Assembly: GCA_002408385.1 (NCBI GenBank)
Contig: DHSB01000059.1
Span: 1 to 14,100, forward strand
DNA length: 14,100 nt
Direction of reading: 5' to 3'
From: Myxococcales bacterium UBA5297
GTDB taxonomy: Bacteria > Myxococcota > Myxococcia > Myxococcales > UBA5297
In this document: positions 7,896 through 13,687 of the stretch, in pieces
Position numbering within the stretch: the first letter of the stretch is position 1
How the letters are laid out: every line of letters starts with the position of its first letter
Program-made: the position numbers and the translations under genes
The notes under the pieces: model-generated
What the model was told of the DNA's origin: nothing
Database searches by the model: none
What the model saw: only the letters and a program-made list of their open reading frames with translations

Positions 7896-8426
7896 TCAGG
7901 CCGCCTTCTGCTCAGCCTTGCGCTCGTCGAGGGCGGCGATCAGCGCCGGGACCACCTCGTAGAGGTCCCCGACGATCGCGTAGTCGGCGATCGCGAAGAT
8001 CGGCGCCTCCGGGTCCTTGTTGATCGCCACGATCAGGTCCGCGCCCGACATGCCGGCCTGGTGCTGGATCGCCCCGGAGATGCCGCAGGCGATGTAGAGC
8101 GCCGGCTTGACCGTCTTGCCCGTCTGGCCGACCTGGCGGTCGTGGCCGATCCAGCCCGCGTCGACGCAGGCGCGCGAGGAGCCGACGAGCCTGTCGGCGA
8201 GCTGCTGCAGCAGCTCAAACCCCTCGGCCTTCCCGAGCCCGCGGCCGCCGGAGACGATCACCTCCGCCTCCTCGAGGGCCACGAGCAGCCGGGTCGACTT
8301 GACGGTCTCGAGCACCTTGGTGCGCAGCCGCGCCGCGTCGAGCGCCGGGGCGACGCGGACGATCGTCCCCTTGCGGCCGGCCTCCCGCTCGGCCTTCTTC
8401 ATCACCCCGGGGCGCACCGTCGCCAT
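7896..8426 (-). CDS. etfA: EtfA C-terminal FAD-binding domain only (5'-truncated etfA)
   Basis: This 176-residue ORF starts at ATG 8426. It contains the complete FAD domain of the electron transfer flavoprotein alpha subunit: IVSGGRG (57-63), [10 protein letters not shown] (83-92), [10 protein letters not shown] (99-108), [12 protein letters not shown] (114-125), [11 protein letters not shown] (134-144) and VGDLYEVVP (152-160). Full EtfA is about 320 residues. Here the first Met-Ala-Thr-Val-Arg-Pro is an internal motif of normal EtfA, and the N-terminal domain that packs against EtfB is gone. An in-frame TAG directly precedes the ATG, there is no ribosome site, and no etfB is nearby. EtfA/EtfB normally pass electrons from acyl-CoA dehydrogenases to the quinone pool. 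This copy is most likely a pseudogene created by the deletion or join at about 8427. Confidence 0.85.
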
Positions 8427-8477: not shown

Positions 8478-8876
8478 GCTGCGCCGACGCTGGCCTTGCC
8501 GGATGCCGACGCGGAGATCGAGCCGCTACCGGTGGCCGGCGGAGGCCGGGGCGCCAAGACGGAGCTCGAGCGGCTCTCCACGATCCTCGAGCGGTTCAAC
8601 GACGAATGCGCCCGGCTGTTCGACGACCCGGAGCGCATCGTGCGCCGGATCCGCGAGGACGTCGCGCCCAAGGTGGCCGCCGACCCCGCCTACCAGAACG
8701 CGCGGGAGAACACGCCGCAGACAGCAAGGCTCGAGCATGAACGGGCGCTGTCGCAGGTGATGATCGGAATGCTCAAGGACGACGTGGACCTGTACAAGCA
8801 GTTCGCCAACAACCCGTCGTTCAAGAGGGCGGTTTCGGAGGCGGTGCTGGGGTTGATTGGTGCGGGTGGTTGGTAG
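8478..8876 (+). pseudogene. hsdR: C-terminal fragment of type I restriction subunit HsdR
   Basis: From about 8478 to the TAG at 8874-8876 the frame encodes about 130 residues typical of the end of HsdR: TLALPDADAEIEPLPV, LERLSTILERFNDECARLFD, RIREDVAPKVAADPAYQNAR, LSQVMIGMLKDDVDLYKQFA and NPSFKRAVSEAVLGL. HsdR is the roughly 1000-residue motor and nuclease subunit of type I restriction systems; its nuclease, helicase and most helical parts are missing, and there is no start site. Upstream, a different frame (8434-8475) briefly looks coding (GDPEFDVRKARKK), perhaps another sliver. The fragment is joined head-to-head to the etfA fragment. No hsdM or hsdS is present. Non-functional remnant. Confidence 0.75.
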
Positions 8877-8910
8877 CGGGCGCCGCCGAGACCTCACTTC
8901 GGCCGCCCAA

Positions 8911-9160
8911 GCCGAGCGCGACTGTCAGAAACCGCGGCTTCCCAGCTGCAAGTCGGGTCCTGACTGTCGAAAAGTGCGATTTGCCTCCGTCAACAGGCGT
9001 TCCAATGTCCGAAAAACGCGATTTGCACGGTGCAAATCGCGGTTTCAGAGCCGAAGGGGCCGACTTGCACGGTGCAAATCGCGGTTTCAGACCCAAAGAA
9101 GGCGACCTGCACGCGGGAAGCCGCGTCTCGAGGCGCAAAGCAGGCGAGCAGCCCGCAAAG
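8911..9160. repeat. Degenerate 42-bp tandem repeat array with internal inverted halves
   Basis: Units begin at 8911, 8953, 8995, 9037, 9079 and 9121 (the last is about 40 bases). The best pair (9037 and 9079) share 32 of 42 bases by eye; outer units are more degenerate. A 27-base block starting TTGCACGGTGCAAATCGC recurs at 9023 and 9065. Each unit is made of two roughly 21-base halves in opposite orientation, giving dyads such as CGCGATTTGCAC-g-GTGCAAATCGCG (9017-9041) and a near-copy at 9061-9081. There are no spacers, so it is not CRISPR. Because 42 is divisible by three, both strands also read as 14-residue repeats, but no start or ribosome site supports coding. Confidence 0.75.
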
Positions 9161-9164
9161 AGGA

Positions 9165-9191
9165 GGAGCCCGGCGGGCATCGCCGGGCTCC
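9165..9191 (-). terminator. Terminator-like hairpin downstream of a minus-strand tail
   Basis: Perfect 11-bp arms GGAGCCCGGCG / CGCCGGGCTCC surround a 5-base loop. On the minus strand the stem is followed by TCCTCTTTG, and on the plus strand by GTGCTGTGAG, so the T-rich side points to minus-strand transcription. It lies 30 bases beyond the stop of the minus-strand tail at 9221. Confidence 0.5.
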
Positions 9192-9220
9192 GTGCTGTGA
9201 GGCTCCACGATTCGGACGCG

Positions 9221-9310
9221 CTACCCGTCGGCAGGCGGGTCCGCGGGGGTGGTCGACGCCTCTTCGGCTGCCGCCTCAATCGTCTCGCCTGGGTGGCGGG
9301 TCGAGGGACG
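9221..9310 (-). pseudogene. Possible minus-strand C-terminal gene tail, unrecognised
   Basis: About 25 codons before the TAG at 9221-9223 read HPGETIEAAAEEASTTPADP and then a short end, an acidic Ala/Pro/Thr tail of plausible protein composition, followed by a strong hairpin at 9165-9191. Upstream of about 9310 the same frame becomes an Arg-rich shadow of the plus-strand PilY1-like gene. It is therefore probably the 3' end of a gene whose 5' part was lost. Short and low-complexity, so it may be chance. Confidence 0.2.
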
Positions 9311-9319
9311 GACGCGACG

Positions 9320-9925
9320 CGCGCGCAGCAGGCCGCGACCTACGACGAGAACCGGCTCACGGAAGAAAAGCTGGTCAAGCTCGAGCCCAAGCTCGACCCC
9401 AACGCCGCGGATCCGACTGTCCTCGCCACGGAGGCCGATAGCGGCTGGTACTTCTACTATCCGGCCATCGACGAGGCGACGGCGACCAACACCACCATCT
9501 ACAACGGCTGCGTCCTCTGGAGCACCCTGCAGCCGACCCCGCCGTGCACCGCCGACAACCAGTGCAGCGAAAAGTGCATCGGCGGTGGCTGCTTCGAGGA
9601 GTCGCGCGACTCCTGCCAGGCTGCGAGCACCTTGACCGCCTCGTTCCTCTACCAGGCGAACGCGACGACCGGAGGCTCTCAGTGCGGCCTGACGGCCAAC
9701 CCGACGCAGCGCAGCCAGACTCACGTGCTGGTGCCTCCGCCGCCGCCCCAGGAGATCATCCAGGTCAACACCTATGGCCAATACAAGACCTCGATCGCGC
9801 CAGCCCCGGGTATGGAGGCGCCTCCGGCGAGCGTCGAGACCTTCGACATGCTGCGCCAGTTCGGCACCCTGGAGATCCCCCGCAACGTCCACGAGTGCCG
9901 CCACCGCGGACGCTGCGACCAGTAG
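9320..9925 (+). pseudogene. PilY1-like C-terminal fragment (type IV pilus tip/adhesin relative)
   Basis: The frame from about 9320 to the TAG at 9923-9925 encodes roughly 200 residues. Features are EEKLVKLEPKLDPN, DSGWYFYYPAIDEATA, a NGCVLWSTLQPTPPC block, a Cys cluster (C-x5-C-x3-C-x4-C), AASTLTASFLYQANATTGGS and later VNTYGQYKTSIAPAPG. The GWY segment, the 'something-W-S-T-x-x-P ... C' block and the closing G-Q-x-x-x-S match the C-terminal propeller end of PilY1-like proteins, surface proteins that cap type IV pili and control retraction (family knowledge). Full proteins exceed 1000 residues; there is no start codon or signal peptide here. The 5' end meets a minus-strand tail at about 9310-9320. 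A terminator follows at 9958. Assignment is moderate. Confidence 0.5.
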
Positions 9926-11046: not shown

Positions 11047-11159
11047 GGGCGCAATCTACTGCGCCGGCGCCGCGGATGGCGCCCCGGCCCTGCCCGCGGA
11101 GGCGAGCGCGGGTCGAGAGCCCGCCGCCCCTGGCTCGGGGCCTTCGAGCCCGACGCGGC

Positions 11160-11570
11160 TCAGGGGCGGGGAACGAAGAGGCTCGTGCCGTCGCTGTCGC
11201 CGTCGGGGTCGTGGTTGGCGCCCGGCTCGTAGGCGAAGCCGGCCCCGCTGACGGTGTTGACCCGGAAGGTCACGCTCTTCTTGAGCGCTCCGCTCGAGAG
11301 GGTGCAGAGGCCCGCGGCGTCGGTGGTACACAAGCTGGTCCCGCCGCTGCTCCAGGAGCCGCTGACGGCGGCGCCAGGAACCGGGGCGTGGCGGGCGTCG
11401 TCGACGCGGACCGTGACGAGGGCCTTCCAGCGGCGCGCCGAGGGGACCATCGCGCCGTCGAGGTCTCCGACGTGGAGCGGGGCAGGCGGCGGGGGCTGCG
11501 CGGAAGCGACCGCTCGAGCCGCGTTGACTCGCCCGTAGACCGCGAGCTCGGCGTCCGCGAGCCGGTCCGC
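11160..11570 (-). pseudogene. C-terminal end of an S8 (subtilisin-like) serine peptidase with Ig-like domain
   Basis: Ending at the TGA 11160-11162, about 135 residues read ADAELAVYGRVNAARAV, the usual end of a peptidase S8 domain (Y-G-x-V-N-A-x-x-A). A Pro linker, LHVGDLDG and a beta-rich module follow: ALVTVRVDDARHAPVPGAAV, SGSWSSGG, a C-TTDAAGL-C pair, VTFRVNTVSG and NHDPDGDSDGTS near the end. This C-terminal module is common behind secreted bacterial S8 proteases (general knowledge). The whole catalytic domain (Asp/His/Ser triad) and signal peptide are missing. At about 11570 the sequence switches to the IS91-type transposase reading, so an IS insertion or a deletion destroyed the gene. 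It would have been secreted. Confidence 0.6.
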
Positions 11571-12345
11571 GCCCCTGCCTGGGGCAGTGCGAAGCCAAAG
11601 TGCGCCTGCATGGCCTCGATCTGCAGGCTCGAGAGCGCGTCGTCGGGATTGGCCTCGCGCAGCCCCAGGCTCTCGACGAGCGCCAGGTCCGGCGCACGAT
11701 GCGCGCGAGGATGCGCTCGAGATCCGAGAGCCGGGGCCGCGCGAGCTTCTCGAAGCGCACCGCACCGTCCTCGGGCGCGAGGAAGAGCCCGTCGGGCACG
11801 AGCGCGTGGTGATGCGGGTTGAGGTTGAGCCGCGACCCGAAGCGCTGGGTGAAGCAGACCGCCCCGGTCTTCTGTCCAGGCAGGCCCTGGCGGCGCGCCT
11901 GCAGCCGCTGCCAGCGAAAGACCTCGGACAGGAAGATCGTCGCCGAGCCCCGCGCCGCGCGCGGGAAGCGCGCCAGCAACGGGCGCAGCCAGCGCGGGTA
12001 GGAGAGCACCCACTGGCGCCAGGCGACGAACGGCAGGCCCCGGTCGACCAGGTGCGCGGCGGTCTCGTACATGCGCGCAGCACGAGGGGCAGAAGCCGCG
12101 AGCCTTGCAACTGAAGGCGACCAGCAGCTTCTCGCCGGACGCGGGGCAGCAGACGAGACGCGCAGAAAGCCCTCGGAGAGCAGGCCGCACGACAGGTAGC
12201 TGCGCAGCTCGCGCTCGACGTAGCGCGGCAGCCCGCGTCCCTGCCCGTTCAGCTCGGCGAGGAAGGTCGCGAGGTGCTCGCGCACGAGCCGGTGCAGCAG
12301 GGTCTTCTCCGGCTCGCGGCGCCGGTAGGGCCCAAACGGATCCCG
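11571..12345 (-). mobile_element. IS91-family transposase remnant (frameshifted, 3'-truncated)
   Basis: On the minus strand the N-terminal half of an IS91-like transposase is readable across two frames. The segments are REPEKTLLHRLVREHLATFL and YVERELRSYLSCGLLSEGFL; after a frame change near 12150, a zinc-binding CCPASGEKLLVAFSCKARGF followed by CPSCCA; after a return near 12070, YETAAHLVDRGLPFVAWRQW, SATIFLSEVFRWQRLQARRQ, GAVCFTQRFGSRLNLNPHHH and ALVPDGLF; then another shift near 11700. The HHHxxxxDG-like segment is the HUH/His region of this Y2/Y1 replicase-type family, which moves by rolling-circle replication. The C-terminal part with the catalytic Tyr is absent and replaced by the S8-peptidase tail at about 11570. 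IS91-type elements lack terminal inverted repeats, so element borders cannot be set exactly. The right limit lies near 12330-12345, against the peptidase-MA gene. Confidence 0.75.
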
Positions 12346-13687
12346 GTTGAGGTCTACGCCGACGCGCGAGCCCTCTCCGAGGTCTCCACCCTGCCGCTCG
12401 AGGCGATCAAGACCTCGAGGACCATCGCCGTCTGCAAGTTCAACCAGATCCTGATCACCAGCCCCAAGGCGCTGGTGAGGGGCTACGGCTGGCAGGACAC
12501 GCTCGCCCACGAGTACGTCCACCTCGTCGTCTCCAAGAAGAGCCATAACCGGGTACCGATCTGGTTCCACGAGGGCTCGCCAAGTACCTCGAGTCGCACC
12601 GGGACGGCGCCGCCGGCCGGGCGCTCTCGCCGGCCTTCCTCGCCCAGGAGCACAAGAAGAACAAGCTGATCCCTATCGAGCGGATGCACCCCTCGATGGC
12701 GCTGCTGCCCTCGCAGGAGGACACCGCGCTCGCCTTCGCCGAGGTCTTCACCGCCATCGAGCTTGTCTACGCCAGGGGTGGCAACCCGATGTTGGTGAGG
12801 CTGACCGAGTCGCTGCGCGAGGGGGCCGGCTACGAGGAGGCGATCGGGCGGTCGGTCGGCGCCCCGTTCTCCAGGTTCTTCGCCGACTGGAAGAGCTACC
12901 TCGGCAAGCGGGCCCACCCCAAGGACGCGCTGCCGCTCTCGGCCGAGAAGCGCCGCTTCACCGAGGACGAGGCCCCGAGCCCGGCGGGCCAGAAGACCGA
13001 GGAGGAGCGCGAGAAGATCCGCTTTGCCTACTTCCTGGAGATCGAGGACGAGCAGGGGCGGCGCCTCGCCCACCTCGGGGAGCTGCTGCGCGCCCGCAAC
13101 CGGAACAAGGCCGCGGTCGAGGAGTTTGCCAAGGCCTACCGCCGGGTCGGCAACCGCTCGCCGGCCCTCTCGACCCGCTACGCCCAGGCGCTGATGAAGG
13201 CGGGCGATCTCGCCAAGGCCGAGGCGCTGCTGCTGGCGAGCCTCGAGCCGTTCCCGGACTACGTGCGCACCCACCGGCTCCTCGGGCAGCTCTTCTCGGC
13301 GACCGGGCGGCCCGCCGAGGCCGAGCGCGCCTTCCTCGCGGTCGTCGCACCGCCCCCCACGCCGCGCTGCGGGAGATCTCCGCCGCCCGCCAGGACGAGG
13401 CGCGCTCGCTGCGCGAGTCGGACGCGCTCGACGTCCTCTCCGGCCGCGCGATGCCGGAGCAGGCCTCGACGACGGAGGGGATGATCCTCGTACGCAGTCC
13501 CCCCCCTGCGCCCGCGTGGTGCTCGACGGGCTCGACGACCCCCGCGCGGCTCCGAGTGGCTCCCGGCACCCACGTCGTCGGCCTTCTCAACGAGGAGCGG
13601 GGGATCGCCCGCGAGGCGGCGGTCGAGGTCGCCGCGGGCGAGGAGACGCTCGATGTCGCGCTCGGTCAGGCGACGTCGGAGCCTTGA
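12335..13687 (+). pseudogene. Peptidase-MA family protein with TPR and PEGA-like end, 5'-truncated and frameshifted
   Basis: The protein is readable only by changing frames. From about 12335: RIPVEVYADARALSEVSTLP, TLAHEYVHLV (zinc-binding HExxH) and PIWFHEG (the third ligand region of gluzincins). After a one-base loss in the G-run at 12573-12576: LAKYLESHRDGAAG, MHPSMALLPSQEDTALAFAE and FADWKSYLGKR, then two or three TPR-like helical pairs (RNKAAVEEFAKAYRRVGN; LAKAEALLLASLEPFPDYVR). Further shifts lie at C-runs near 13353-13358, 13499-13506 and 13539-13543, after which VVLDGLDDP, RVAPGTHVVGLLNEERG and VEVAAGEETLDVAL resemble a PEGA domain. The N-terminal part, including any signal peptide, is missing at the IS91 boundary. 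Either a decaying gene, or an intact 3' part with sequencing indels. Probably envelope-located. Confidence 0.65.

Follow-up and report, generated by a model that had tools for sequence, protein, structure and literature searches.

Evidence for an intergenic satellite class with a near-constant 42-bp period and mostly locus-specific sequence, enriched downstream of two orphan gene families in a Myxococcales bacterium

A spacerless 42-bp repeat array was confirmed at ~8907-9135 of a 14,100-nucleotide stretch of DNA (the window, meaning the whole stretch analyzed) from Myxococcales bacterium UBA5297, and it is best read as one member of a genome-wide intergenic satellite class that is constant in geometry, not in sequence. 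The arrays of this class are real and intergenic, mostly specific to their locus, and partly grouped in families, and their lengths can differ by one complete unit. Their geometry consists of ~21-bp modules (two helical turns), usually combined in 42-bp units; in the family of the window array, the modules are alternating inverted halves. Class arrays are strongly enriched after the genes of two orphan families, X and Y. For X, this link extends beyond a single genus, and the arrays and gene families together hint at a type of bacterial repeat system that has not been described. The explanation we lean toward, tentatively and with slightly less than even confidence, is a BIME-like, helically phased satellite that is kept at the DNA level and tied to X and Y, with a function that we infer. 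The window is the entire contig C54 of a source genome of 7.65 Mb in 255 contigs, and the features around the array are collected in Table 1.

Table 1. The repeat array and its neighboring features in the window
Feature	Position	Strand	Basis
Spacerless array of ~21-bp halves, period 42	8907..9135	.	Half-unit matrix, TRF, self-identity and shuffles
Best conserved units, inner dyad centers 9029 and 9071	9007..9093	.	Matrix, dyad counts, model R1
Strong GC hairpin, terminator-like, between X 3′ end and array	9165..9191	-	Fold of 9137-9220 minus, z -2.96
Remnant of the 3′ end of orphan gene X (final 33 codons and stop)	9221..9322	-	Profile A2 match 9224-9322, E 9e-10
Left neighbor ORF, at least 126 codons, without Pfam match	8496..8876	+	Own gene caller; Pfam

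A 23-nt half-unit matrix, trained with strand and spacing left free on the window array and five other arrays, so that its scores are not independent, places plus-strand matches with starts at 8907, 8965, 9007, 9049, and 9091 and minus-strand matches with starts at 8945, 9029, 9071, and 9113. TRF reports a core at 9009-9113 with a period of 42, 2.5 copies, 80% matches, and a score of 147. At lag 42, self-identity over 8911-9160 reaches 0.63, and a value of 0.51 is seen at lag 84; in 300 dinucleotide shuffles, the maximum over lags 15-89 averages 0.34 and never rises above 0.41. The sequence-only reading had described alternating inverted halves; alternation is strict for the six halves at 9007-9135, the starts of which differ by 20 or 22 bases, but not before them, where a minus half expected at ~8987 is missing. 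Both inner dyads had been called strong: that centered at 9029, with 15 of 17 pairs matching, beats all 200 shuffles (best 13), but that at 9071 is ordinary (10 of 17; shuffle mean 10.3). The picture of progressively degenerate units, best conserved in the center, is a fair description, the bounds originally given for the array are good to ~25 bases, and model R1 matches 9009-9048 with an E of 1.8e-7. Adjacent units join directly, head to tail, and resemble one another over their full extent, without the unique spacers of a CRISPR.

The left neighbor ORF stops 31 bases before the array. An ORF without a Pfam match at 9326-9925 (plus strand) begins exactly where the X remnant, on the opposite strand, breaks off, and the locus therefore resembles a patchwork of gene pieces. 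Farther away and not adjoining the array, an ORF at 11059-12570 (minus strand) weakly matches the IS91-type Y2 transposase family PF04986 over 30 positions and resembles a decayed insertion sequence. At 7896-8426 (minus strand), an ETF alpha FAD-binding domain occupies an ORF of only 176 aa, probably a truncated gene.

The repeat unit of the window recurs in the source genome. BLAST of the window stretch retrieves C246 (82% over 195 bases) and C83 (81%), and the exact dyad pattern occurs at seven places on four contigs (reversed control, 0) and, among 40 neighborhood genomes, in the source genome only. A unit model built on sequence alone from 25 units at six loci matches at least nine loci at E ≤ 0.01 (150 of 4459 candidates scored): C54, C246, C83, C202, C91, C135, C9, C66, and C53, the last three lying outside the training set. 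The sequence-only reading had named absence of the unit elsewhere as grounds for giving up its interpretation, and no such absence was seen. Across 195 phylum genomes searched at E ≤ 0.001 with stricter filters, the model matched the source genome only. The family core is GCGATTGGC or GCGATTTGC. At eight of the nine loci, at least five halves alternate in a row, and at the ninth, C53, halves occur as pairs; four more consecutive halves at C9 share one orientation, and C224 and C227 have 41-bp direct units carrying the family core. Alignment of C246 with C54 reveals a 42-column insertion in C246 equal to one whole unit. The earlier idea of a palindromic mobile minisatellite is partly supported, namely by the dispersal of the family and by paralogous arrays that differ by one 42-bp unit.

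A repeat of 14 residues in a peptide had also been proposed, given that 42 bp is 14 codons and that ORFs on both strands cross the array. We reject this reading as almost certainly wrong: sister arrays with 41- and 43-bp units are present and exclude a reading frame, 35 of 36 array rows (two rows being duplicates) fall outside called genes, and the two array-crossing ORFs, one per strand, both lack a Pfam match. Transcription of the array into structured or processed small RNAs, as a hairpin array or in a TIGR-like manner, has very little probability. Such RNAs would suit an array that adjoins the gene of a helical protein and has two motifs per unit varying between loci, like the TIGR arrays described in PMC12045711, but covariance and folding are both at shuffle level: 77.2% of cells in the inner helix are paired against 76.6% in shuffles, and 36 consensus units fold near their shuffles (mean z -0.49). 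The window has 0 Rfam matches, 15 profiled arrays contain no pair of spacer-like random blocks, and a hairpin stands between gene and array. The RNA hairpins of the sequence-only reading thus receive no general support, and RNA structure is not something that the arrays have in common.

Large numbers of non-coding satellites are, to our knowledge, unexpected in bacteria. Arrays with a TRF score ≥ 100 were counted in a 705-kb sample of the source genome (40 stretches, some on contigs touched by earlier searches and two containing known X or Y loci), with non-coding status assigned by our own codon-usage gene caller. Class periods (20-22, 41-43, 82-86, 125-127, and 166-169) account for 19 of the 28 non-coding arrays, or 26.9 per Mb, with one of the 19 (L115) looking coding. 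If the sample is fair, extrapolation gives about two hundred class arrays in the source genome. Class arrays are mostly unrelated in sequence and locus-specific. The 16 gaps that hold arrays comprise 3 convergent, 11 tandem, and 2 divergent ones, and a run of N falls within or borders the array in 5 of 15 array loci checked; such arrays break short-read assemblies. By eye, three source-genome arrays (L119:10217-10701, L142:117-486, and L135:14671-14832) share a CGTCG...CGACGAT dyad motif and are possibly a second dispersed family. Two others (L107:15705-16156 and L142:18872-19187) have the conserved block CCACTCGATGAGT in common, after which their sequence is more variable, a possible third family.

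The shared architecture was assessed on 23 units judged non-redundant, set against 4748 real non-coding 42-mers of the source genome. Reverse-complement symmetry (p 0.001), 10.5-bp periodicity of purines (p 0.0006), and 21-bp self-similarity (p 0.01) are all raised. When the window family and C123 are left out, z is 2.0, 2.6, and 2.3, respectively, so it is the period that the arrays firmly share. Circular reverse-complement symmetry attains p < 0.05 in 8 of the 36 array rows, five of which belong to the window family; dyads are strong in this family and a weak tendency elsewhere. A putative phased protein-binding array, another suggestion of the sequence-only reading, is compatible with a period near 42 (or 21) over unrelated sequences.

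Orphan gene X was recognized from a gene 3′ end common to C54, C246, and C83, which are homologous copies and hence not independent; the C246 copy is an intact ORF of ~251 aa. Searches with X gave no Pfam, NCBIfam, or PADLOC match and no significant PDB relative. The AlphaFold2 model of X is all-helical (pLDDT 87.2), and fold comparison of this model with the PDB yielded no meaningful match. A protein search found eight relatives at E ≤ 0.001 (7997 candidates scored), and profile A2 places X at nine loci in the source genome, eight of them testable since C228 leaves its contig after 125 bases. With an array defined by a TRF score ≥ 80, a class period, and a distance of ≤ 600 bases from the gene 3′ end, six of the eight have an array 3′ of X (C54, C227, C153, C107, C123, and C138), including C138, where the X copy is broken by a stop. 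The units at C153, C107, C123, and C138 lie outside the window family, and the arrays at C246 and C83 are degenerate members of it missed by TRF. All six X copies that were folded (C54, C246, C153, C107, C227, and C228) have a strong hairpin after the stop (z -3.0 to -4.9), and in all five of these with an array in view it stands between X and the array. Since the hairpin separates the two, the array is probably outside the X transcript.

The array with the most copies in the sample, 15.6 of 43 bp at C137, adjoins the 3′ end of a second orphan ORF, Y (245 aa), of which the source genome holds three intact copies and one pseudogene. Judged as for X, arrays follow two of the three intact copies (C137 and C69); the third, at C38, has 21-bp repeats with subthreshold scores of 65 and 72, and the pseudogene at C253 has no array in 1.2 kb without N. 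Taken together, 8 of 11 X and Y loci in the source genome qualify, and the three that do not (C246, C83, and C38) have degenerate arrays. As a control, 466 genes were sampled: 17, including X at C107 and Y at C137, have a class array within 600 bases of the 3′ end, and 14 have one at the 5′ end. This unselected sample thus displays no clear preference of arrays for 3′ ends, and most source-genome arrays lie away from X and Y. The two orphan families are not similar to one another, and no DNA-binding domain was recognized in either.

Other genomes bear on this linkage. X is present in 1 of 147 class genomes and in 3 of 195 phylum genomes (the source genome, G157, and G158). A pattern search found contig L084 of G147 (JAEUKJ010000689.1, "Deltaproteobacteria bacterium isolate new MAG-92"), which has two X genes, one cut by the contig end, and also carries window-family halves. 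Outside the source genome, three of four X copies have an array by the same definition: both in G147 (43 and 42 bp) and that in G158 (42 bp, 4.9 copies), with no tandem array at the X locus of G157. The X-linked unit of G158 contains GAACGCGATTGGC and recurs at a second G158 locus. Y occurs in 4 of 195 phylum genomes, one via a partial match, and its carriers include the source genome, G158 (two copies), and G141. G158, picked for X alone, has 26.0 class arrays per Mb (6 of 8 non-coding arrays, 231 kb). Class arrays make up 1 of 9 arrays in 247 kb of G157, the least sure of these counts because the source-trained caller marks only 33% of that genome as coding, and 0 of 1 in 127 kb of G147 outside its X loci. 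The remaining counts are 2 of 3 in G005 (200 kb), 1 of 1 in G003 (39 kb, coding-like), and 0 of 1 in G008 (40 kb); G001 has no arrays in 45 kb, and G036 and G014 (40 kb each) have no class period among TRF rows scoring ≥ 80. Both sampled Y genomes are array-dense; arrays are sparse in G157, where X but not Y was found. Because X in G157 is arrayless and G147 has arrays at X but no class array in 127 kb sampled elsewhere, X alone gives no genome-wide spread. In G158, a spacerless 21-bp array (L204:10885-11142) switches from direct to inverted halfway. G005, of the same order, has a 21-bp array (L230:10936-11051) and a 40-bp array (L231:17646-17819), both non-coding; neither X nor Y was found in it.

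A period that stays near four helical turns despite sequence turnover, together with 41- and 43-bp units and ordinary folding, argues for a constraint on DNA or for copying of fixed length. In the phased-satellite explanation that we prefer, arrays would be kept and multiplied as DNA, like BIME and REPIN clusters, and the period would be fixed because duplication or conversion proceeds in whole units and so stays in helical phase. The selected partner may be a protein reading one helix face, such as the X or Y product, gyrase, or a nucleoid protein. X and Y loci would act as source loci, by analogy with RAYT genes for REPINs, and in the window the X 3′ end, hairpin, and array would have survived where the rest of X was lost.

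The main rival, which we regard as doubtful, is a neutral satellite generated by slippage and gene conversion, with the period a mutational property of the lineage and X and Y bystanders in permissive places. Prokaryotic satellites are documented (PMC6749651), most of the present arrays are locus-specific and sit in gaps without clear orientation bias, and the paralogues C246 and C54 differ by one unit, all of which suits neutrality. Slippage alone, however, predicts neither a period near 42 over unrelated sequences, nor arrays at 8 of 11 X/Y loci against 17 of 466 genes, nor the X-linked arrays of G147 and G158. In a further, unlikely proposal, X and Y would be the protein partners in a novel two-part system. 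Both, being small and helical, would recognize DNA geometry, with modules in phase every two turns, and not sequence; each would act on the array downstream of its own gene and, in genomes with both, drive or tolerate the spread of phased arrays along the chromosome. If so, phased arrays might hold supercoils or organize the nucleoid.

The sequence-only reading had found no recognized REP or BIME here, which stands as regards tags and transposase but not the layout, which is BIME-like. As expected of REP/BIME elements, the arrays are extragenic, regularly spaced, and alternating in orientation, judged by strand runs and intergenic position. As to one repeat sequence present in many copies, another mark of such elements, the observations point both ways: the window family occupies at least nine loci, and most class arrays differ in sequence. 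Among 38 units, 5 contain GTAG, against an expectation of 5.3, and 15 contain CGTC, against 17.1. A RAYT search of the source genome gave two weak PF01797 matches, one of them a real ORF, with no array or half-unit beside it. Membership in the RAYT-driven REP/BIME elements accordingly fails, there being no tag enrichment and no RAYT with cognate arrays. That a Y1 (RAYT) transposase, unrecognized here or since lost, moved a BIME/REPIN system seems decidedly improbable. Such a system would explain alternating extragenic repeats with an adjoining partner gene, the captured 3′ ends of that gene, as PMC2817692 reports for rayt, and the Y1-like ORF itself (225 aa, HPH motif); against it stand the lack of a tandem repeat or half-unit at this ORF, tag counts at expectation, and units that differ between loci. 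Given that the tag and transposase criteria fail, we put forward phased satellites whose candidate partners are X and Y.

Several known systems share parts of this picture. TIGR-Tas arrays, as described in PMC12045711, likewise lie beside the gene of a helix-rich protein, alternate two motifs per unit, and vary in motif by locus. Here, in contrast, there are no variable spacers, X has no Pfam match and no Nop-domain match among the matches listed, and a hairpin stands between gene and array; TIGR membership fails, as the column conservation of the 15 profiled arrays displays no paired random 9-nt blocks. Like prokaryotic non-coding satellites, the arrays are tandem, non-coding, and, for the window family, spread through the genome. 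In 119 surveyed bacteria, PMC6749651 reports >4 satellites/Mb in 18 species, densities with which our 27 class arrays/Mb compare only roughly because settings differ, and dispersed non-coding long-repeat families in Leptospira interrogans among the bacteria surveyed. The satellites of this species and of Methanocella conradii are similarly non-coding tandem repeats >30 bp in genome-dispersed families (PMC6749651), but the present class holds one period over many sequences and is linked to two orphan families. The closest parallel in layout, RAYT-REPIN/BIME-2, combines alternating short extragenic repeats, tandem clusters, a partner gene beside the cluster, and captured partner 3′ ends (PMC2817692, PMC3116915). 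It differs in that most loci here are unrelated in sequence, spacers and GTAG/CGTC enrichment are absent, X and Y are not recognized transposases, and the period is locked near 42. A kept period, drifting sequence, and adjacency to X and Y would point to selection or a copying mechanism acting on helical geometry, with X and Y as concrete candidate partners for how BIME-like phased extragenic repeats arise and persist. Known phased operator arrays, iterons, and centromere-like sites repeat binding motifs in helical phase with their sequence kept; the present arrays share the phasing, but their sequence changes by locus, and were X and Y indeed partner proteins of a two-part system, it would be a sequence-free analogue of RAYT-REPIN or ParB-parS.
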